Positions 4,423-13,279 of a stretch of DNA of 64,000 bases are shown here, one piece after another (the stretch's first letter is position 1; every line of letters begins with the position of its first letter). A program made the position numbers and the translations under genes. The stretch is taken from positions 1 to 64,000 of the IMG/VR virus record IMGVR_UViG_3300035670_000140. The stretch is one strand, 5' to 3'. The notes beneath the pieces are model-generated. The model was not told where the DNA came from, made no database searches, and saw nothing but the letters and a program-made list of their open reading frames with translations. This stretch comes from a virus.

Positions 4423-4884
4423 ATGTACGATAAACCACCACAATACTTAATTGATGCTGTTCGTCGTGGAGATTGGATCGATCCAAAAGATCCATATGTC
4501 CGTAAGATGATGAGAGAAGAGAAGAAAAAAGAAAAAGAAAGAAAAAAACTTTTACAACAACAAGAAGAAATTCCTTTTGAACTTGAACAACGCTTTATTG
4601 ATAGGCGTATAGAATATCTAGAACGTGAACACGAACTTTTCGAAAAACAACAGGATTCTATTCATCATACTATTAACTGGAACTATCCTCTAACTTGTAA
4701 ATACGATCATTGTGGATGTACATCGATGAGAATAGTTGAGAAACCTAATTACATACATTATGCTGAGTATGTGTGTAATCTGTGTCATCGTCATAATGCT
4801 TGGATACCATACAAAGATAAAGAAAAAGTATTAAGTTTTCCACAGGTTACGGAGCATATTGTGGAAAACTGTGTGGAAAACTGA
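4423..4884 (+). CDS. zinc-ribbon protein (153 aa), last gene of the operon
   Basis: Residues about 25-75 form a very charged, long helix (EEKKKEKERKKLLQQQEE). The C-terminal third has a zinc-ribbon-like set: C92, H96, C97, C99 and a second knuckle C118-x2-C121 inside YVCNLCHRHNAWIPY. That second knuckle (A..VC..C.R...W.P) is a motif I know from small cyanobacterial and cyanophage zinc-ribbon proteins. Nucleic-acid or protein binding is likely. The last codons contain three DnaA-box sequences, so this gene end doubles as part of the putative origin. Confidence 0.65.
   Translation: MYDKPPQYLIDAVRRGDWIDPKDPYVRKMMREEKKKEKERKKLLQQQEEIPFELEQRFIDRRIEYLEREHELFEKQQDSIHHTINWNYPLTCKYDHCGCTSMRIVEKPNYIHYAEYVCNLCHRHNAWIPYKDKEKVLSFPQVTEHIVENCVEN
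4836..4880. other. DnaA-box cluster 1
   Basis: Three exact copies of the 9-mer TTTTCCACA, the form reported for cyanobacterial DnaA boxes: 4836-4844 on +, 4860-4868 and 4872-4880 on -. The first two also make a GTTTTCCACA/TGTGGAAAAC inverted repeat. They overlap the 3' end of the zinc-ribbon gene, so a partial terminator role is also possible. Confidence 0.6.
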
Positions 4885-4945
4885 ATAATTAAAAATATGT
4901 TAAAAAATATAGATAGAGTGAAATGTATTGAGTATAACTAAATGT

Positions 4946-4963
4946 CTTAAAAAGTCTTTTAAG
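4946..4963 (+). repeat. short AT-rich inverted repeat
   Basis: CTTAAAAAGTCTTTTAAG: 7-bp arms around a 4-base loop, with no T-run after it, in the 214-base gap between the zinc-ribbon gene and the gene at 5099. May be a weak hairpin. The rest of the gap has only the promoter at 5048-5074. Confidence 0.4.
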
Positions 4964-5047
4964 GTGCTCTGTGGTCGTTGGCTTAGCGTGTAACCCATCG
5001 AAAGTCAACTCTAAGGGTGCCAGTACCCAAAGTGTCACACAGACCCC

Positions 5048-5074
5048 TTGTAGGTCCTCCTAGTGCCTTATAAT
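5048..5074 (+). promoter_or_regulatory. sigma70-like promoter for the gene at 5099
   Basis: A perfect -10 TATAAT at 5069-5074 with a weak -35 (TTGTAG, 5048-5053; 15-base spacer). The preceding GTGTCACACAGACCCC resembles the upstream part of the promoter modules found at 6.1-8.7 kb. Confidence 0.55.
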
Positions 5075-5098
5075 TACAGAGTCGAACACAGAGACCAC

Positions 5099-5272
5099 AT
5101 GCTTACAGTCACTGAGACCACCACGAGGCAACTCAATGCTAACGAGAAACTCTCCCTGGACACACAGAGGGTCACAGAGGCATACCTGAAGCACTTGGCA
5201 GCAGGTGAGAAGCACGAAGCAATTGCCTATGCTAAAGTGTTGATGCTTAAGGCAATGGCAATGGGTCGATAG
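5099..5272 (+). CDS. small hypothetical protein (57 aa) between the DnaA-box clusters
   Basis: ATG at 5099 lies 25 bases after the -10 box; an in-frame codon at 5063 is before the likely transcript start and is rejected. The protein is helical (MLTVTETTTRQLNANEKLSL..., then a helix ending AMAMGR). It has its own promoter and sits between two DnaA-box clusters. A replication role is therefore possible but only by position. Confidence 0.6.
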   Translation: MLTVTETTTRQLNANEKLSLDTQRVTEAYLKHLAAGEKHEAIAYAKVLMLKAMAMGR

Positions 5273-5302
5273 TTTTCCACAACCTGTGGAAACTGTGGAA
5301 AA
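5273..5302. other. DnaA-box cluster 2
   Basis: TTTTCCACA at 5273-5281 (+), a one-mismatch box at 5285-5293 (-, TGTGGAAAC) and an exact box at 5294-5302 (-). The order (+,-,-) is the same as in cluster 1. The outer two form a 10-bp inverted repeat, so a hairpin/terminator reading is an alternative. Confidence 0.6.
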
Positions 5303-5423
5303 CTCAATTTTCACTTTTTTCAAAAATCTCAAAAACTGAAAAATCTTAAAAACTCAAAAAGTCAGATTTTTAAGAATTTAAGATTTTTCAAAAACTTTAA
5401 TTTTTAAATTTTAAGGATTTTCA
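5303..5423. other. AT-rich element with long dyad (putative DNA-unwinding element)
   Basis: About 120 bases made almost only of A and T, immediately beside DnaA-box cluster 2. It holds a perfect 14-bp inverted repeat (TGAAAAATCTTAAA 5337-5350; TTTAAGATTTTTCA 5377-5390) plus further short copies of ATTTTTAAG. This arrangement is what a DnaA-dependent origin shows. It also serves as the upstream region of the gene at 5424. Confidence 0.55.
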
Positions 5424-5660
5424 ATGTTTTTTAATTCTTTCGAAAGCTCAGCTATTAAACAAATTGAATTTGATAGTAATAAGCTTTGTATTGTCTTTAA
5501 TTCTTCAGATAAAGTATATGAATATGAAGTAAAAGATGAAGATTTTCTAGATATGCTTCAAAATGTAATTGTAAATGAAGAAAGTATTGGTAAATTCATC
5601 AATACTGCTATAAAGAATAAAGCAATTGTTGAATATACTAATCTAAATACTGCTAATTGA
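5424..5660 (+). CDS. KTSC-like domain protein (78 aa)
   Basis: The protein follows the KTSC pattern: a Ser-Ser-Ala-Ile start (SFESSAIKQIEFD), a strand L-I-V-F, then VYEYEVKDEDFLDML and a final GKFINTAIK. KTSC domains are small, found alone or with other domains in phages and bacteria, and their role is unclear. ATG 5424 is preceded by AAGGA at 5413-5417. Codon use is very AT-rich compared with downstream genes. Confidence 0.65.
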   Translation: MFFNSFESSAIKQIEFDSNKLCIVFNSSDKVYEYEVKDEDFLDMLQNVIVNEESIGKFINTAIKNKAIVEYTNLNTAN

Positions 5661-5922: not shown

Positions 5923-6093
5923 TTGAAAACTATTCGAATTCAAGTTGAAACTTACGATGGTTGTACAACTATCTGGTATGAGAAGTCCAGACTAAAGAAT
6001 CCCACCGACGCTATCTGTAAGCGTGTGAATGAACAATTGTGTGGATTGAATATTAAAAGGATCGAAGTGGCACTGTCACCAGCTACCGTGTGA
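5923..6093 (+). CDS. small hypothetical protein (56 aa), TTG start
   Basis: A TTG-started frame giving (M)KTIRIQVETYDGCTTIWYEK..., then KRVNEQLCGLNIKRIEVAL. The beta-strand/helix pattern and amphipathicity look genuine, and there is no ATG in frame. A competing ATG at 5901 gives only 15 aa. The end overlaps an inverted repeat (CTGTCAC 6073-6079 / GTGACAG 6090-6096) that starts the next promoter module. Confidence 0.5.
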   Translation: MKTIRIQVETYDGCTTIWYEKSRLKNPTDAICKRVNEQLCGLNIKRIEVALSPATV

Positions 6094-6096
6094 CAG
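6073..6096 (+). repeat. inverted repeat CTGTCAC...GTGACAG
   Basis: 7-bp perfect arms with a 10-base spacer across the stop codon at 6091-6093. The GTGACAG arm recurs at the start of the modules at 6944 and 7763. It could be a transcript-end hairpin or an operator. Confidence 0.45.
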
Positions 6097-6113
6097 TTCA
6101 GCAAGTGTCCACA

Positions 6114-6739: not shown

Positions 6740-6942
6740 TTATGACTAAAGATGTGATGATTTCACTGCTCCGTCGTTGCAACAATGGCAATGATATGCT
6801 AGCAGTTCTTGATACCTTGGTTGAAGATGTTCAAGCTGAGGTGATGGAAACTGTGACAGCAATTAGTGATACAATTGCTGAGAAGATGCCTGCCCCTGGT
6901 AACATCATCGTAGATGTTTACGGTCGTGAGGTAGTTTTTTGA
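6736..6942 (+). CDS. conserved small hypothetical protein (68 aa)
   Basis: ATG at 6736 overlaps the previous stop; ATG 6742 is an alternative giving MTKDVMISLLRRCNNG. That N-terminus (MTKDV.ISLLR..N.G..ML..LD) is familiar from cyanophage small proteins of unknown role. Its stop TGA forms the first bases of the 27-bp direct repeat at 6941. Confidence 0.6.
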   Translation: MIMTKDVMISLLRRCNNGNDMLAVLDTLVEDVQAEVMETVTAISDTIAEKMPAPGNIIVDVYGREVVF

Positions 6943-6967
6943 TGTGACAGTCTAAGAGGTGGCACAG
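6941..6967 (+). repeat. 27-bp direct repeat, copy 1
   Basis: Identical to 7760-7786; core GTGACAGTCTAAGAG then GTGGCACAG. Each copy overlaps or abuts a stop codon and leads into a promoter. Confidence 0.85.
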
Positions 6968-7001
6968 GGGGGATTGATTGCCCCCCTTTATCGTGTATTC
7001 T
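6967..7001 (+). promoter_or_regulatory. sigma70-like promoter with -35 in a G6/C6 hairpin loop
   Basis: GGGGGG (6967-6972) and CCCCCC (6981-6986) flank ATTGATTG; -35 TTGATT 6974-6979, -10 TATTCT 6996-7001, spacer 16. The hairpin plus TTT may also end the previous transcript. Confidence 0.6.
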
Positions 7002-7027
7002 ATAAAGGTCAAACGAACCGACACAAC

Positions 7028-7153
7028 ATGTGGGATGAGATTCAAGACATGCCTGGTGAGATCTTCGACATTGAAGAATGGGGTCATCCACTGGCAGAAT
7101 GTTGGCATGACATGGAATTGAATGAGTCTGAAACTGTCACCGAATCTAACTGA
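7028..7153 (+). CDS. small acidic hypothetical protein (41 aa)
   Basis: ATG at 7028 lies 26 bases after the -10 box; an in-frame codon at 6959 precedes the promoter and is rejected. Product MWDEIQDMPGEIFDIEEWGH... is acidic with W and C/H residues. The leader has TCAAACGAACCGACAC, a variant of the leader shared by the GC-rich genes. Confidence 0.55.
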   Translation: MWDEIQDMPGEIFDIEEWGHPLAECWHDMELNESETVTESN

Positions 7154-7160
7154 AACTATC

Positions 7161-7334
7161 ATGGATCGTAAAGAACTTCAGGATCAACTTGTCCAGCAAA
7201 TGTTGGATGACATGGATCTAAAGACCATGACCTGCCTTTGCTATGATTATCTCATGGAGGGTTATGATAAGTATTCTGATGAAGAATTGACTGAAGAGGT
7301 AGAACAATACTACCCCGAATTGCTGGAGGGTTGA
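7161..7334 (+). CDS. small hypothetical protein (57 aa)
   Basis: MDRKELQDQLVQQMLDDMDL... is acidic and all-helical, ending in EQYYPELLEG. It begins seven bases after the previous stop and overlaps the next ATG, so it is co-transcribed from the 6974 promoter. No family recognised beyond similarity to common short phage proteins. Confidence 0.6.
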   Translation: MDRKELQDQLVQQMLDDMDLKTMTCLCYDYLMEGYDKYSDEELTEEVEQYYPELLEG

Positions 7335-7495
7335 TGATGTTGAAAGAATACCATTTCACCGATGAGCAGATTGATTTTCTGCTGGACATTGTGAAGTCTA
7401 ATGCACAGTATGAAGATGATGATTTGAGGGAATGGATGACTGAATTAGCTAATCAGATTGAAGACCAAATTGTAAATCATCCAACGAACGAGTAA
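7334..7495 (+). CDS. small helical hypothetical protein (53 aa)
   Basis: ATG 7334 overlaps the previous TGA (TTGATG). MMLKEYHFTDEQIDFLLDIV... is an acidic helical hairpin. Last gene of the three-gene unit 7028-7495. Confidence 0.55.
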   Translation: MMLKEYHFTDEQIDFLLDIVKSNAQYEDDDLREWMTELANQIEDQIVNHPTNE

Positions 7496-7518
7496 GGTAT
7501 ACAAACTCGGCGGCCGCG

Positions 7519-7544
7519 GGTGGACGGTTGAGGCACTGTCCACC
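7519..7544 (+). repeat. inverted repeat GGTGGAC/GTCCACC before the GC-rich genes
   Basis: 7-bp perfect arms (7519-7525, 7538-7544) around GGTTGAGGCACT. The block GACGGTTGAGG recurs at 8366 and 8740. A clear -35/-10 pair cannot be fixed here; CATACT at 7573-7578 is a possible -10. Confidence 0.5.
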
Positions 7545-7601
7545 AACTGCCCCATTGCCCCCCGATCGGTGCCATACTAAGGGCATCAAACGAAACGAAC
7601 C

Positions 7602-7766
7602 ATGAACCGCTACGAAGTCTACGTCCCCTCTGCCCCTTACGAGTCCGAGTCCACCTTTGATCTCGACCGTGCCTGGGATCTGTGCCTGTCGATGTCTGAA
7701 GAGTTCGGATACGCTCAGGTCCGCCAGAATGGCATGATCCTGGGAGACTACACCAACGGGATGTGA
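7602..7766 (+). CDS. small GC-rich hypothetical protein (54 aa)
   Basis: MNRYEVYVPSAPYESESTFD..., then LDRAWDLCLSMSEEFGYAQV. The leader ends GCATCAAACGAAACGAACC directly before ATG, with no Shine-Dalgarno. Codons are GC-ending, unlike the operon at 1-4884. No known family; likely acquired from a GC-rich cyanobacterium, which is inference. Confidence 0.65.
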   Translation: MNRYEVYVPSAPYESESTFDLDRAWDLCLSMSEEFGYAQVRQNGMILGDYTNGM

Positions 7767-7786
7767 CAGTCTAAGAGGTGGCACAG
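7760..7786 (+). repeat. 27-bp direct repeat, copy 2
   Basis: Identical to 6941-6967 and again placed over a stop codon (7764-7766) upstream of a promoter. Confidence 0.85.
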
Positions 7787-7792
7787 ACCCCG

Positions 7793-7820
7793 TTGATCTG
7801 CCCACCTCACCCCCTATAAT
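7793..7820 (+). promoter_or_regulatory. strong sigma70-like promoter for the ArdA-like gene
   Basis: -35 TTGATC 7793-7798, perfect -10 TATAAT 7815-7820, spacer 16. The start codon is 116 bases further, a much longer leader than for its neighbours. Confidence 0.75.
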
Positions 7821-7936
7821 ACTTTCAGAAGCGAACCCTCCCCAGAAACCACCCGCCATCGGGACAGGTCTGACGGTAAGATCCTTCACTGCTGTAGGGG
7901 AGATCGGCACCCCAACCCAAACCAATTCTTTACATC
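7821..7936 (+). promoter_or_regulatory. long 5' leader of the ArdA-like gene
   Basis: About 110 transcribed bases without an open frame worth naming. Contains GGGG...CCCC (about 7898-7914) able to pair, and CAGAAGCGAACCC near the start. Its length suggests leader control or a lost gene; no known riboswitch recognised. Confidence 0.35.
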
Positions 7937-8365
7937 ATGTCCGTCACTTTGACTGCTAGCTACAAAGAAGTCCTCGCTCCTGTTACTGTTGAGAAGATCG
8001 ATGAATTGATCGATGAGAACTATGCTCTCGATGACATGCTGGAGTTCATCGACAACCACAATGAGAACGATTTTGTTCACTATTATGAAGAGTATTGCCG
8101 TTGTGGTGAAGCAATCGGTTACGATGCTGTAGATGCTCTTATCGATGAAATGGGAGACGTTTCTGACATCGAAGGGTGTGATGATCGTTTCCGTGGTTGG
8201 TATGAATCTGAGGCAGACTTTGCTGAACAGTTCTACAACGACATCGAGAACATTCCTGCCTCTCTGGTGATCGATTGGCAAGCAACCTACGATTCTTCGC
8301 TTCGCTACGATTTCACCTCTTGTGAAGTAAAATACCGTCAGGTCGCCATCTTCAGCGACTACTAG
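7937..8365 (+). CDS. ArdA-like antirestriction protein (142 aa)
   Basis: Highly acidic 142-aa protein. The central and C-terminal parts follow the ArdA pattern: an acidic segment then F-x-G-W-Y-x-S-x-x-D-F-A-E-x-F-Y, I-P-x-S-L-V-I-D-W-Q-A-T-Y, and L-R-Y-D-F. Known ArdA proteins (about 165 aa) are elongated acidic dimers that mimic DNA and block type I restriction enzymes. This one is shorter at the N-terminus, where a repeat-like acidic part (LIDENYALDDMLEFIDNHNE) replaces the first domain. A promoter with perfect TATAAT and a long leader precede it. The role in protecting phage DNA at entry is inference; an ArdA-related protein without antirestriction function is the alternative. Confidence 0.65.
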   Translation: MSVTLTASYKEVLAPVTVEKIDELIDENYALDDMLEFIDNHNENDFVHYYEEYCRCGEAIGYDAVDALIDEMGDVSDIEGCDDRFRGWYESEADFAEQFYNDIENIPASLVIDWQATYDSSLRYDFTSCEVKYRQVAIFSDY

Positions 8366-8374
8366 GACGGTTGA

Positions 8375-8396
8375 GGGGGTGGCACACTCCACCCCC
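8375..8396 (+). repeat. hairpin GGGGGTGG/CCACCCCC
   Basis: 8-bp perfect arms with a CACACT loop, ten bases after the ArdA-like stop. No T-run. Same module family as 6114, 6967, 8749 and 9416. Confidence 0.6.
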
Positions 8397-8417
8397 AGAT
8401 CCCCCCGCCCTGGGCTC

Positions 8418-8423
8418 TATACT
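8418..8423 (+). promoter_or_regulatory. probable -10 box (TATACT) for the gene at 8448
   Basis: TATACT, followed by GATCACATCGAAACGAAACGACCC (leader shared with three other genes). The -35 is poor, as the expected position falls in a C-rich run. Confidence 0.5.
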
Positions 8424-8447
8424 GATCACATCGAAACGAAACGACCC

Positions 8448-8741
8448 ATGACCGTTCAATCCTTCATCACCAACCACGCCAGCGACAATACCTACAACGG
8501 GTGGGCAAATTACGAAACCTGGAATGTGGCACTGTGGATCATGAATGATTCATTTCTCTACAACACCGCCAAGGCATGTGTAGATTTTTGTGGTGACAAT
8601 GAGACCCCCTGGGATAAGTTCCAACGTTGCATGATGGAGGGTCAAATCGGACGTATGCTCGGGCAAACTCGGGACGGTGTGAAGTGGAACGATTCTAAGA
8701 TCAACGCCGCCGAGATCAACGACATGATGGCAGAGCTGTGA
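8448..8741 (+). CDS. NYETWN-motif small phage protein (97 aa)
   Basis: Carries YNGWANYETWNVALWIMND near residue 17, the signature of a small protein family common in phages and some bacteria (function unknown; I believe it is one of the DUF7249-type families). The start at 8448 follows the leader ACGAAACGACCC; the in-frame upstream codon at 8379 is before the -10 box. GC-rich codons. Stop TGA starts the next intergenic module. Confidence 0.7.
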   Translation: MTVQSFITNHASDNTYNGWANYETWNVALWIMNDSFLYNTAKACVDFCGDNETPWDKFQRCMMEGQIGRMLGQTRDGVKWNDSKINAAEINDMMAEL

Positions 8742-8748
8742 CGGTTGA

Positions 8749-8796
8749 GGGGGTGTCCACCGATGCCCCCCATCCTGCCATCTGACCCTGTAGACT
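8749..8796 (+). promoter_or_regulatory. intergenic module: G5/C6 hairpin and -10 TAGACT
   Basis: GGGGG 8749-8753 pairs with CCCCCC 8766-8771 over TGTCCACCGATG. Then CTGACCCTGTAGACT (8782-8796), which recurs exactly at 8991-9005; TAGACT is the likely -10. Confidence 0.5.
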
Positions 8797-8817
8797 GATC
8801 ACATCAGCAAACGACAC

Positions 8818-8994
8818 ATGCTCAAGACCCTCGCCATCCTTGCCCTCGGCGCCGCCTTCTACGCCCCCATCGCCACCGTGGGCGCTGCTGCCATCGGGTT
8901 CGCTGCCGACACCGTAGAGGCAGTCAACACCGCCACCGAGCGCCGCTGTGCCACCTACAACAGTGTCCTCCCTGGTGCCTGCCAGATGCCCTGA
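8818..8994 (+). CDS. small exported or membrane protein (58 aa)
   Basis: MLKTLAILALGAAFYAPIAT then further Ala/Gly-rich hydrophobic residues to about 30: a signal peptide or single membrane helix. The C-terminal part is polar with two Cys (RRCATY, PGACQMP) that could form a disulphide. Very GC-rich (the first 60 bases after ATG have 42 G/C). An envelope or lysis-related role is possible; no family recognised. Its stop lies inside the CTGACCCTGTAGACT repeat. Confidence 0.6.
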   Translation: MLKTLAILALGAAFYAPIATVGAAAIGFAADTVEAVNTATERRCATYNSVLPGACQMP

Positions 8995-9005
8995 CCCTGT
9001 AGACT
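8991..9005 (+). promoter_or_regulatory. CTGACCCTGTAGACT repeat, copy 2, probable -10 region
   Basis: Exact copy of 8782-8796. It includes the TGA stop of the gene before (8992-8994) and is followed by ACACATCAAACGAAACGACCC just before the next ATG. Confidence 0.55.
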
Positions 9006-9028
9006 AAACACATCAAACGAAACGACCC

Positions 9029-9190
9029 ATGACCTGCTCCAACGCCTACCGCTCCCAGTTCGCCCCCCAGTACGATGATCGCTTCCTGGACTGTGAGCAC
9101 GATGACCTGATGACCGCCGATGATTACGATGCCCGCCGCTGGGAGCGTGACGGATGGGGTGAGGCACAATACGATCGCCAGCGGTGGTGA
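9029..9190 (+). CDS. small acidic hypothetical protein (53 aa)
   Basis: MTCSNAYRSQFAPQYDDRFL..., ending in WGEAQYDRQRW. Rich in D, R, Y and W. The leader CAAACGAAACGACCC joins directly to ATG. GC-rich. Not recognised. Its stop codon (9188-9190) overlaps the -35 of the next promoter. Confidence 0.6.
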   Translation: MTCSNAYRSQFAPQYDDRFLDCEHDDLMTADDYDARRWERDGWGEAQYDRQRW

Positions 9191-9214
9191 CCCCTGCCCC
9201 CCATCTGCTACAAT
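9187..9214 (+). promoter_or_regulatory. sigma70-like promoter overlapping a stop codon
   Basis: -35-like GTGACC 9187-9192 (contains the stop TGA), -10 TACAAT 9209-9214, spacer 16. Confidence 0.55.
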
Positions 9215-9238
9215 ACCCTAGAACCTCTCCCCCTCATC

Positions 9239-9424
9239 ATGGCACTGTTCAACCAAGCAACCGACCTCAAGACCCGTCAGACCATCTGGGTCAGCACCAA
9301 CGTCGTTAAGGGTCGCCCCCAGATGAACTCTCACCGTGAGGGTCGCTGTGGCGCCTCACTGGCAGAGGCAGGCATCGATGGGTTCTGTGCTGCTGAGTGG
9401 GCAGGACTTCATCACGGGGGTTGA
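9239..9424 (+). CDS. small hypothetical protein (61 aa)
   Basis: ATG at 9239 is 25 bases after the TACAAT box. MALFNQATDLKTRQTIWVST... has a beta-strand N-terminus and a Gly/Ala-rich end (AEWAGLHHGG). Its stop is inside the -35 TTGACC of the next promoter. Confidence 0.55.
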   Translation: MALFNQATDLKTRQTIWVSTNVVKGRPQMNSHREGRCGASLAEAGIDGFCAAEWAGLHHGG

Positions 9425-9449
9425 CCCCTCGCCCCCTACCCTGTACAAT
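9416..9449 (+). promoter_or_regulatory. sigma70-like promoter, -35 in a G5/C5 hairpin loop and over a stop codon
   Basis: -35 TTGACC 9421-9426 (holds the TGA stop 9422-9424), -10 TACAAT 9444-9449, spacer 17. GGGGG 9416-9420 and CCCCC 9432-9436 flank the -35. Confidence 0.7.
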
Positions 9450-9470
9450 ACACACAGCAACCAACACCCG

Positions 9471-9671
9471 ATGAACTTCGCCACAGCAACCAAAGCAGAA
9501 CTCATGGCAGCAGGATTCGAGATCCGAACCATTCGCCCACGTCGCCCACGTAAGGGTGAACTCATCTGCCAACGTGTAGGGTTTAAGACTAAGCGAGGCA
9601 GTCAACAGTGGCGAGATCGTGAGGCAATCTCTTCGCCCTCTGCTTATGCTGTTGTGATGGGTAACGGTTGA
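9471..9671 (+). CDS. small basic hypothetical protein (66 aa)
   Basis: ATG at 9471, 22 bases after the -10 box; an in-frame codon at 9336 lies in the gene before. Basic protein with a positively charged middle (IRTIRPRRPRKGELICQR), possibly nucleic-acid binding. Followed by a strong terminator. Last gene of the GC-rich island. Confidence 0.65.
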   Translation: MNFATATKAELMAAGFEIRTIRPRRPRKGELICQRVGFKTKRGSQQWRDREAISSPSAYAVVMGNG

Positions 9672-9682
9672 CAGTATACACA

Positions 9683-9711
9683 GGGGACAGTGATTTGTCC
9701 CCCCTTTTTTT
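9683..9711 (+). terminator. Rho-independent terminator ending the GC-rich island
   Basis: GGGGACA (9683-9689), loop GTGATT, TGTCCCC (9696-9702), then CC and seven T. The block GGTTGACAGT just before it resembles the start of the promoter modules. Confidence 0.85.
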
Positions 9712-9786
9712 ATACTTAAGGCGGCCGAGCGCCCCCCGATCCAAAAAAGTACCTTCTTTCTAACCTACAAACGTTTCCCAGCGCCC

Positions 9787-9794
9787 GATAAATA
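9787..9794 (+). promoter_or_regulatory. T4-type late promoter GATAAATA
   Basis: Matches the phage late -10 element used with gp55/gp33. It is 60 bases before the gene at 9855; the first such element going rightward, marking the switch to late genes. Confidence 0.5.
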
Positions 9795-9854
9795 TTTCAG
9801 GGTCCCCCTATATAAAAAAAATTCCCCAGGTAAAAAATCTCAAAAAACCTCGAT

Positions 9855-10076
9855 ATGGAACACAAAGTAACTTACAAAAAGCCCGATGGCACTTTACAGG
9901 AGACATTATTTGATAATTTTGATGAATTTGCTGACAGTATGGAAAGTGTTGCCCAACAATATTATCAAGGATTGAAAGCCCCTAGCGATATTAATATTGA
10001 GACAGTTTTAGACAATGGAGAAATGAGAAATGAAAAAATTTCCTTCGATGGAAGAACTGAATGCTTATCTGAGTAA
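9855..10076 (+). CDS. small hypothetical protein (73 aa), start of late region
   Basis: MEHKVTYKKPDGTLQETLFDNF..., acidic, mixed strand and helix. AT-rich codons again, in contrast to the island just before. The next gene begins inside its 3' end (47-base overlap). Function unknown. Confidence 0.6.
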   Translation: MEHKVTYKKPDGTLQETLFDNFDEFADSMESVAQQYYQGLKAPSDINIETVLDNGEMRNEKISFDGRTECLSE

Positions 10077-10200
10077 ATTAGAATTATTCTATAAGCCTCC
10101 TGGTGGAGATTATATGAAAATTACTGAATACTTAGATCAAGTAGAAGCAAGACTTAGAAATCTAGAAAATGCCACAGATAGTAACACCACAGACGAGTGA
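10030..10200 (+). CDS. small helical hypothetical protein (56 aa)
   Basis: MKKFPSMEELNAYLSKLELF..., then KITEYLDQVEARLRNLENA, a typical short coiled coil. It overlaps both the gene before (47 bases) and the PAAR-like gene after (32 bases). Its coiled coil and place beside baseplate genes would fit a structural or chaperone role. Confidence 0.55.
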   Translation: MKKFPSMEELNAYLSKLELFYKPPGGDYMKITEYLDQVEARLRNLENATDSNTTDE

Positions 10201-10537
10201 TACGGCAAGTACAGATGGAACCTGTACGTATCCTCCAAAACCCCTAGGAGGCGCTCCAATCGTGTCTCCGAATGTATACATAGGTAAGAAGCAGGTAGAG
10301 TTTTACACGTCCTCTACAGTGCCTTCTACAGTAGAGGGAGTGAAGATTAATCCTCTCAGTCCTTTGCCTTGTCAACCTGGCACTAGGGTAATTGTCCCTG
10401 GCATTAACAAAACTGTCTACATTAACAAGCAATTGCCAGCTGTACAGGGAGATAAGGCACAACTGTTAGGCATTGACAGATTACTGACAGCACCATTTGG
10501 TCCTGCCAGTGTGGTATTTGCTTCAAAGGGCAATTAG
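10169..10537 (+). CDS. PAAR-like spike-tip candidate (122 aa)
   Basis: Pro/Gly/Thr/Val-rich beta protein without helices. The second half has spaced V-I-V-P-G, V-Y-I-N-K-Q-L-P-A-V-Q-G-D and F-G-P-A-S-V-V-F-A-S-K-G segments, like the repeated loops of PAAR-type tip proteins (gp5.4 in T4). Such proteins cap the gp5 spike below the baseplate. It lies just upstream of gp25, where cyanophages keep central-spike genes. The metal-binding Cys/His set of PAAR is not obvious, so a different small baseplate protein is possible. Confidence 0.45.
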   Translation: MPQIVTPQTSDTASTDGTCTYPPKPLGGAPIVSPNVYIGKKQVEFYTSSTVPSTVEGVKINPLSPLPCQPGTRVIVPGINKTVYINKQLPAVQGDKAQLLGIDRLLTAPFGPASVVFASKGN

Positions 10538-11081: not shown

Positions 11082-11474
11082 ATGCCTGAGTTCCAGACAT
11101 TTAAAGATTTTAATGTTAACTTTAAACCACATCCAGTAACAGGCGACTTGATGGTGGTTAAGGATTCTGCTGACATTAAGCAGTCCATTAAAAATCTTTT
11201 AATGACTAGAAAAGGTGAACGTTTGTTTCAGTCTGAAATTGGAACCAAATTATTTGACTTGTTGTTTGAACCTCTAGATTTTGCTACAGCTTCATTGATT
11301 CGTGATGAAATCATTGTAATTTTAAATAACTACGAAAAACGAGTTAGTGTCCAGAATTTATCTGTTGACACTAACTTTGAAGACAATGGTTATGACATTG
11401 AATTGTATTATACAGTTATTGGTAGAGATGATCTTCCCACCAACGTAGAGTTCTTCCTAGAGAGTGCTAGATAA
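11082..11474 (+). CDS. 25: baseplate wedge protein gp25
   Basis: 130 aa, the same size as T4 gp25 (132). Shows the gp25/GPW pattern: an N-terminal F-K-D-F then DLMVVKDSADIKQSIKNLL, the conserved TRKGERLF-x-S-E-I-G-T turn with the glutamate, and ILNNYEKRV. In T4 gp25 is part of the wedge core (gp6)2-gp7 with gp53 and helps start sheath assembly. It lies two bases before gp6, as in T4-like phages. Confidence 0.95.
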   Translation: MPEFQTFKDFNVNFKPHPVTGDLMVVKDSADIKQSIKNLLMTRKGERLFQSEIGTKLFDLLFEPLDFATASLIRDEIIVILNNYEKRVSVQNLSVDTNFEDNGYDIELYYTVIGRDDLPTNVEFFLESAR

Positions 11475-11476
11475 CT

Positions 11477-13279
11477 ATGGCATCATACGTACAAGTCTCT
11501 AATTTAGACTTCAATCAAATTAAAACTGCTCTAAAGGAATATCTTAGAGCACAATCAGACTTCACTTCGTATGATTTTGAAGGATCAGCGATGAATGTCC
11601 TTTTGGACGTTCTTGCTTACAACACTTATTACACAGCATTCAATGCTAACATGCTGGTGAATGAGTTGTTTCTGGACTCGGCAACCCTCAGGGACAACGT
11701 TGTAGCACTTGCTAAGCAGTTAGGGTATAGACCAAAATCAAAGGTCGCTCCTGAGGCGAAAATTACTTTTAGAGTGGAATATAATGGTACAGCTCCAAAG
11801 ACTGCTGTACTAAAAAAGGGCACAGGTTTCACAACTGTATTTGATGAGACTTTATATTCTTTCGTTTGTGTTGAAGATCAGTCAGCACCTGTGGAAAACG
11901 GTGTTGCTTACTTCGACGATATTCCCATTTACGAAGGAACTGTTGTTACTAACAAATTTGTTGTTAATACTTCACTGACTCAACGTTTCATTATTCAAAA
12001 TGCCGATGTTGATATCAGCTCCATTCGTGTTAAAGTTTTTGACAGTATTCAGTCAACTTTCTATGAAATCTACGAATATGCTGACAACATTCTGAATGTA
12101 ACTCCAAATTCTAGAATTTTCTTCCTGGAAGAGATTGAAGATGAAAGATATCAATTATTCTTTGGTGATGGTATTCTAGGTAAAGCATTGGAGAATGGAC
12201 AAGAGATTGAAGTTTCGTATTTGATTACCAACGGTGCTGCTACAAATGGCGCTAAAAACTTTACATACAATGGCGTACTAACAGATTTAATTGGTGCTAC
12301 TGGTTATCCAAATACTGTCATTATTAATCCTGCTGCTACTGTTGTTGCTAACGGCGGTGCTGACATCGAATCAATTGCTAAAATTAAATATAATGCCCCA
12401 AAATATTTTGGTACACAAGATCGTGCTGTTACTGCTGACGATTATGCTGCTATCGTTAGAAACATTTACCCAGCGATTTCCGACATTATTACGTTCGGTG
12501 GAGAAGAAGACGAACCACCTGAGTATGGTAAAGTAAAAATCGTAATCAAACCATCATCTGCTAGCTTCTTATCTTCTACTACAAAGAGAGATATTGTAGC
12601 AAAACTGAAGAAGTATATGGTTGCTTCGGTGATTCCAGAAATCATTGATCCATCAATTCTTTATATCGAAGCAACTAGTAATATCTACTATTCACAATCT
12701 ATCACCACCCAGAGACCAGAGGAGATTAGAAATAAGGTAGTTTCTGGTGTAGAAGCATATCTAGCACAATCAACGGTAGAAAAGTTTAACGGAAAGTTTA
12801 GATTTAGTAAATTTGTATCAACAATTGATAATTCTGATCGTTCAATCAATTCAAATGCTACAACGATTAAAATGAGAAAGGATTTCTATCCTCAAATCAA
12901 TTCTTCATCTTACTACGAGCTTTGCTTCCAGAATCCATTTGACAAAGATTGTGAAGGTCCAACGCTTCAGTCAACAGGATTCAAAGTCACCGAGTTCCCT
13001 ACCTACACAGTGTATTTCGAAGATAGGGATGGCATAATCGTCCTATATAGAATAGACAGTTTAACTGGTGAAAAAATTACATTAAATGATTCTCTAGGTA
13101 CAGTAGATTATGACAAAGGCGAAGTTAAACTATACAATTTAACTATCGTTCAAGGTAGTTTTGATGATAATAAGATTGAAGTACGTGTAAATCCACTTTC
13201 TAATGATATCAGTGCTTCAAGAGAAGTGTATCTAGATGTAGATATCAGCAAGAGTAAATTTACTGCGTATCCAGAGTAA
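11477..13279 (+). CDS. 6: baseplate wedge protein gp6
   Basis: 600 aa against about 660 in T4. The J-like fold is visible: the N-terminus FNQIKTALKEYLRAQS, the helix AYNTYYTAFNANMLVNELFL, and the central domain with AVTADDYAAIVRNIYP and the KVKIVIKPSS strand. gp6 dimers form the continuous inner ring of the baseplate that opens on contraction. The C-terminal 100 residues (VTEFPTYTVYFEDRDG...) look like a beta addition. Followed after four bases by the gp7 gene. Confidence 0.93.
   Translation: MASYVQVSNLDFNQIKTALKEYLRAQSDFTSYDFEGSAMNVLLDVLAYNTYYTAFNANMLVNELFLDSATLRDNVVALAKQLGYRPKSKVAPEAKITFRVEYNGTAPKTAVLKKGTGFTTVFDETLYSFVCVEDQSAPVENGVAYFDDIPIYEGTVVTNKFVVNTSLTQRFIIQNADVDISSIRVKVFDSIQSTFYEIYEYADNILNVTPNSRIFFLEEIEDERYQLFFGDGILGKALENGQEIEVSYLITNGAATNGAKNFTYNGVLTDLIGATGYPNTVIINPAATVVANGGADIESIAKIKYNAPKYFGTQDRAVTADDYAAIVRNIYPAISDIITFGGEEDEPPEYGKVKIVIKPSSASFLSSTTKRDIVAKLKKYMVASVIPEIIDPSILYIEATSNIYYSQSITTQRPEEIRNKVVSGVEAYLAQSTVEKFNGKFRFSKFVSTIDNSDRSINSNATTIKMRKDFYPQINSSSYYELCFQNPFDKDCEGPTLQSTGFKVTEFPTYTVYFEDRDGIIVLYRIDSLTGEKITLNDSLGTVDYDKGEVKLYNLTIVQGSFDDNKIEVRVNPLSNDISASREVYLDVDISKSKFTAYPE

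Follow-up and report, generated by a model that had tools for sequence, protein, structure and literature searches.

The window analysed here comprises the first 64,000 nucleotides of the viral record IMGVR_UViG_3300035670_000140 and belongs to a T4-like cyanomyovirus. Its nearest annotated relatives are Kyanoviridae, and gp25 and gp6 lie downstream of the locus, in keeping with the T4-like identity given in the original prediction, which had been made from the sequence of this stretch. Two clusters of the 9-mer TTTTCCACA occupy the upstream region (Table 1). A 153-aa ORF ends, at its 3′ side, within cluster 1; cluster 2 comes after the stop of a 69-aa ORF and precedes a KTSC-domain gene. Homologues of the 69-aa ORF occur in L287, L307, L330 and L266, and those of the KTSC-domain gene in 37 other loci. 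The small-gene region at 7000-10000 is a high-GC island (0.48-0.53 versus ∼0.36 across the window), and a comparable rise (0.51) directly follows the box cluster of S-PM2. A leader, AAACGAAACGAcCCATGAcC, is repeated around the start codons of successive small genes in the window (7588, 8434 and 9015).

Table 1. Features of the box-cluster locus and of the downstream genes, in window coordinates
Feature	Position	Strand	Remarks
DnaA box 1, cluster 1	4836-4844	+	TTTTCCACA, exact match
DnaA box 2, cluster 1	4860-4868	-	exact match; convergent with box 1, spacer 15 bp
DnaA box 3, cluster 1	4872-4880	-	exact match; direct repeat, 12 bp from box 2
AT-rich element	4888-4912	+	ATTAAAAATATGTTAAAAAATATAG; conserved, melt-prone, after cluster 1; candidate DNA unwinding element
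Conserved core	4960-5008	+	around GTTGGCTTAGC...ATCGAAAGTCAA; E=2e-10, sole significant profile match in the window
Promoter-like module	5016-5074	+	palindrome GTGCCAG...GTGTCAC, then TATAAT at 5069-5074; conserved in alignment
69-aa ORF	5063-5272	+	between the clusters; no known family; alternative ATG start at 5099
DnaA box 4, cluster 2	5273-5281	+	exact match
DnaA box 5, cluster 2	5285-5293	-	GTTTCCACA, near match, one mismatch
DnaA box 6, cluster 2	5294-5302	-	exact match
AT-rich stretch	5303-5423	.	after cluster 2; 17-bp repeats and a 24-nt imperfect inverted repeat
KTSC-domain small protein gene	5424-5660	+	PF13619; frequent neighbour of the module
Weakly PAAR-like gene	10169-10537		downstream of the clusters
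gp25, baseplate wedge gene	11082-11474	+	PF04965, phrog_261; positional anchor
gp6	11477-13279		downstream of the clusters

A sequence scan confirmed the initial description of the boxes: five exact copies of TTTTCCACA and one near match lie within 467 bp (4836-5302), with the orientation order +,-,- in both clusters. Two other exact copies, each isolated, were known at 11890 (inside gp6) and 17553, and scanning the full 76,366-bp record added none to these seven. Where the original estimate was about 0.5 chance copies per 64 kb, dinucleotide shuffling yields 1.2 ± 1.0; seven copies did not occur in any of 100 shuffled sequences. By a first-order Markov estimate, the chance of finding five copies in 467 bp anywhere in the window is ∼4e-10. 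There is no genome-wide excess of one-mismatch copies (38 versus 31 expected), so the signal lies in the clustering of exact boxes. The identification of TTTTCCACA as the reported cyanobacterial DnaA box agrees with the literature (PMC4674748). The locus presents a cluster of host-consensus DnaA boxes, a trait of oriC-type, DnaA-dependent origins.

Comparison across viral sequences places these clusters at a recurrent position. A scan for the convergent box-pair pattern returned at least 120 viral stretches and a three-box pattern returned 112; the box-cluster locus is carried by well over a hundred related sequences. Among the matches listed and the isolate loci, gp25 or gp6 served as an anchor for about 100 loci with clusters; these clusters lie 2.2-9.1 kb upstream of gp25 on its coding strand. 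The gp25 gene was present in 52 of the 56 whole records examined, in one of which it is 14 kb from the cluster. Eight of 22 sampled Kyanoviridae isolates carry clusters: S-PM2, S-CREM1, S-RIM32, S-RIM8, S-RIM12, ACG-2014d, S-SZBM1 (its position counted across the circular junction) and AG-345-P14 (partial). Clusters are restricted to the gp25-upstream region in the seven complete isolate genomes that have them; the many clusters elsewhere that the original prediction had named as evidence against itself were not found. The remaining 14 isolates have scattered single exact boxes or none; because some of the 22 were picked for resembling the window and others through gp25, the boxed fraction is not an estimate of prevalence. 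The expected conservation among related cyanophages is borne out for the fixed place of the clusters in about 100 loci, but not for most of the isolates sampled.

The spacing of the boxes is constrained too. Among the matches listed, the spacers of 98 deduplicated convergent pairs peak at 4-5, 14-16 and 25-27 bp, nearly all falling at 3-6, 12-17 or 24-29 bp and leaving 7-11 and 18-23 bp empty; the initial patterns admitted spacers of 3-30 bp only, and longer ones are under-sampled. The best period for these pairs is 11.0 bp (Rayleigh R=0.83), a helical phasing that fits the cooperative DnaA binding of oriC-type origins. Direct-repeat boxes are mostly 11-12, 21-22 or 32-34 bp apart. In the window, the 15-bp spacer between boxes 1 and 2 belongs to the 14-16-bp mode, and the 12 bp between boxes 2 and 3 is the commonest direct spacing among relatives. 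In other viral contigs, DnaA boxes of the E. coli type have similar preferences (R=0.58), unlike a reversed control motif. This geometry points to a DNA-bound protein with the spacing rules of DnaA and counts against RNA hairpins. Certain GC-rich viral contigs of a different family (L052, L054, L067, L086, L095, L107 and L109) carry TTTTCCACA pairs with a fixed 18-bp spacer.

The 40 bp after cluster 1 rank among the least stable 0.13% of the window. Among 63 deduplicated clusters, TTAAAAAAYATAG occurs within two mismatches in 35% (versus 2% of shuffles), its best match mostly 8-11 or 19-21 bp past the last box, and 54% fall among the least stable 5% of local DNA; since these clusters were selected for having the core described below and themselves supplied the motif, the frequency applies to the core-bearing subset. 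As far as sequence can tell, then, the boxes adjoin a conserved element of low stability of the kind that serves as the unwinding element of an oriC-type origin. The original prediction had instead assigned this part to ∼120 bases of almost pure A/T after cluster 2. That stretch is real, overlapping the 120-bp interval where the A+T content of the window is highest, and is a possible second unwinding region, but its A+T content is ∼83-84% and it is not conserved among relatives. A+T-richness past the clusters is modest on average and moderate in many relatives, and the conserved AT element follows cluster 1; the 120-bp stretch was therefore rejected as a conserved unwinding element.

Beyond the AT element lies a core of ∼50 bp with the consensus TTGTwGtCTTAGCrCGC..CTAtCGA..GTCAA. 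It is found within 260 bp after a box cluster in 62 of 105 gp25-anchored loci. Of 266 segments downstream of clusters 101 contain it, compared with 2 of 256 random segments. S-PM2 has one significant match; a profile search detected none in S-CREM1, although that phage has boxes. The association of boxes and core is independently confirmed by 44 contigs picked by the core alone, 29 of which show an exact box no more than 220 bp upstream of it, a 39-fold enrichment over local density. Several boxless phages retain both AT element and core, so the locus can exist without boxes. In five boxless Kyanoviridae (L128, L132, L133, L134 and L491), other inverted repeats, such as TTGGATACTACCCAA and TTCTCAATAAG..CTTAATGAGAA, were seen by eye upstream of the core, near the expected box site; these are perhaps sites of another initiator.

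The promoter-like module that follows may, judging from its motifs, be the promoter of an origin transcript. Many relatives have TTGACA-N17-TATAAT at this position. In the window the TATAAT precedes both cluster 2 and the AT stretch that follows it, the -35 is poor where that of many relatives is good, and a consensus promoter scan did not call the module. The palindrome TGTGnCAGTn4-5AAGTGGCACA recurs within the window (5016-5074, 6082-6113, 6941-6967 and 7758-7826) and is frequent in relatives too; at 5016 and 7758, TATAAT follows ∼30 bp on. This recurrent module is possibly a cyanomyovirus promoter operator.

On the host side, cyanobacterial DnaA(IV) binds paired boxes cooperatively (PMC4674748). 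Putative host oriCs upstream of dnaN in small cyanobacterial genomes have up to seven TTTTCCACA-like boxes per 700 bp, versus 0-2 per 2 kb farther off. These boxes are concentrated within ∼360 bp of dnaN and are mostly one base off consensus; 3 of 20 dnaN-upstream regions have none. The genomes behind these regions share a phylum with a named cyanobacterium; their size, and numbering that starts at dnaN, suggest that they are those of picocyanobacteria. A phage-encoded DnaA was rejected after a search for DnaA-domain proteins came up empty in 11 phage records (this incomplete 76-kb record and ten complete relatives). The GC-skew turn anticipated near 5 kb is absent here, as at the loci of S-PM2 and S-CREM1, and this check gives no support for an origin. 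Such a switch is usual for chromosomes without being strictly required of an oriC-type origin. Skew is uninformative in these phages, in which nearly all genes share one strand, and a turn is not a necessary result of T4-type replication.

Taken together, the comparative evidence strongly supports reading these sites as DnaA boxes that belong to an origin-like locus of a T4-like cyanophage. The support comes from the fixed position upstream of gp25, the helical phasing, the melt-prone element, the core, and the match to boxes at putative host oriCs. We assign a probability of roughly 0.6 to the locus from 4836 to ∼5420 being a replication-origin module that recruits host DnaA. This reading is favoured since the parts match the needs of a DnaA-opened origin and the place is broadly that of T4 oriE. 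What survives of the DnaA-dependent origin originally proposed is thus a DnaA-box, origin-like locus; its AT stretch is not the conserved part, the skew turn is absent, and about two thirds of the sampled isolates are boxless.

An adjacent promoter means that the boxes could serve transcription, and DnaA is a known transcription factor in bacteria. Host DnaA, or the level of DnaA-ATP, might activate or repress the downstream promoter and so time the small genes, with no replication start involved. The conserved promoter-like module within ∼200 bp downstream suits such an operator, as does the persistence of core and promoter in boxless phages. However, an operator needs neither a conserved melt-prone AT element at a phased distance from the boxes nor a second cluster beyond the first gene, and further copies of the element's promoter-like half stand at other, boxless places in these genomes; we consider this explanation unlikely. 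Alternatively, the boxes could act as a decoy that sequesters host DnaA and stops host replication as phage copies build up. Each boxed phage genome does bring several exact boxes, and these have the perfect consensus where most boxes at putative host oriCs are one base off. Yet a decoy calls for no fixed position near gp25, no adjoining AT element and no core, and the boxes outside the locus are few and single, which makes titration an improbable purpose.

As boxless relatives retain the core, some further DNA-binding factor is probably at work at the locus. That the 9-mer itself is bound by some other phage or host factor, for example in DNA packaging or recombination, is nonetheless very doubtful: the boxes are exactly the cyanobacterial DnaA box, their spacing rules resemble those of E. 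coli-type DnaA boxes, and similar boxes stand at putative host oriCs. Least probable of all is a role for the inverted boxes as terminators of transcription or as RNA hairpins. Convergent boxes do fold as RNA hairpins (z ∼-2.4 to -4.6), but a terminator scan requiring a GC-rich hairpin and a T run found 0 sites, and hairpins account neither for spacer steps of ∼11 bp with empty intervals between them nor for the ∼11-12-bp steps of direct-repeat boxes. The terminator reading was rejected on these grounds, which counts against the terminator-only action that the original prediction had set against itself. A conserved RNA was also rejected, with no Rfam match in the window and no consensus fold in the core alignment.

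If the locus is an origin that recruits host DnaA, its operation can be sketched. Host DnaA would bind the convergent, helically phased cluster cooperatively and melt the AT-rich element just downstream (4888-4912), opening the phage DNA to the phage's own T4-type replisome for first-round replication. The adjacent promoter would probably assist opening through its transcription, and after that the phage would rely on recombination to replicate, as T4 does. The origin would be bipartite by virtue of cluster 2, which lies ∼430 bp downstream and has an AT-rich flank too. DnaA binding, melting and firing are all inferred. By analogy with the T4 R-loop origins oriF and oriG, which combine a promoter with an A+T-rich unwinding element (PMC3016281), origin and promoter functions may coexist here.

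Several known systems share parts of this arrangement. Cyanobacterial oriCs (Synechococcus elongatus, Anabaena and Cyanothece) have the same 9-mer, paired boxes and adjoining AT-rich DNA. Unlike the phage locus, they usually lie beside dnaN. The phage core was not found at putative host oriCs, so that a core common to both was rejected, and the phage boxes are nearer consensus than those of putative picocyanobacterial oriCs. T4 oriE, located upstream of 5.4 and gene 6 (PMC3016281), likewise belongs to a T4-like phage and has repeats. It precedes the PAAR(5.4)/6 baseplate genes, and the neighbourhoods correspond roughly, with 2-9 kb of variable small genes intervening before 5.4(PAAR)-6 in the cyanophages. 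However, oriE has no DnaA boxes, and a conserved core and a greater distance from gene 6 set the cyanophage locus apart. Direct repeats found in the oriE region are of another kind and fall within the gene 5 coding sequence; homology with the oriE 'iterons' is therefore not claimed, and synteny with them was rejected. Iteron plasmid origins that need DnaA (P1, F, RK2 and pSC101) also place host DnaA boxes beside an A+T-rich opening region in a mobile replicon (PMC5043065), whereas no Rep initiator was identified at the cyanophage locus, and this virulent phage family has its own T4-type replisome. For Syn9, a single theta origin exists as a prediction only (PMC2984593). In the open-access library searched, no paper was found that describes DnaA boxes or a DnaA-dependent origin for a cyanophage; the kind of origin is known, and its setting and architecture appear new.

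T4-like cyanophages are among the most abundant viruses of the ocean. No established account of how their replication starts was found in the open-access library searched. The chances seem evenly balanced that a large lineage of them uses a hybrid origin, in which an AT element specific to the phage, next to the conserved core and a promoter, would be opened by host DnaA and the phage replisome loaded there. In related phages the boxes would have disappeared or given way to other sites and the remainder stayed, so that the initiator was swapped at one syntenic origin during evolution. Boxed and boxless relatives have the same locus in common and so offer a natural experiment, and the laboratory-cultured phages S-PM2, S-RIM8, S-RIM12 and S-CREM1 provide a concrete, conserved and testable origin candidate. 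The locus suggests that a phage lineage known as self-sufficient in replication ties the initiation of its first round to the cell-cycle initiator of its host.
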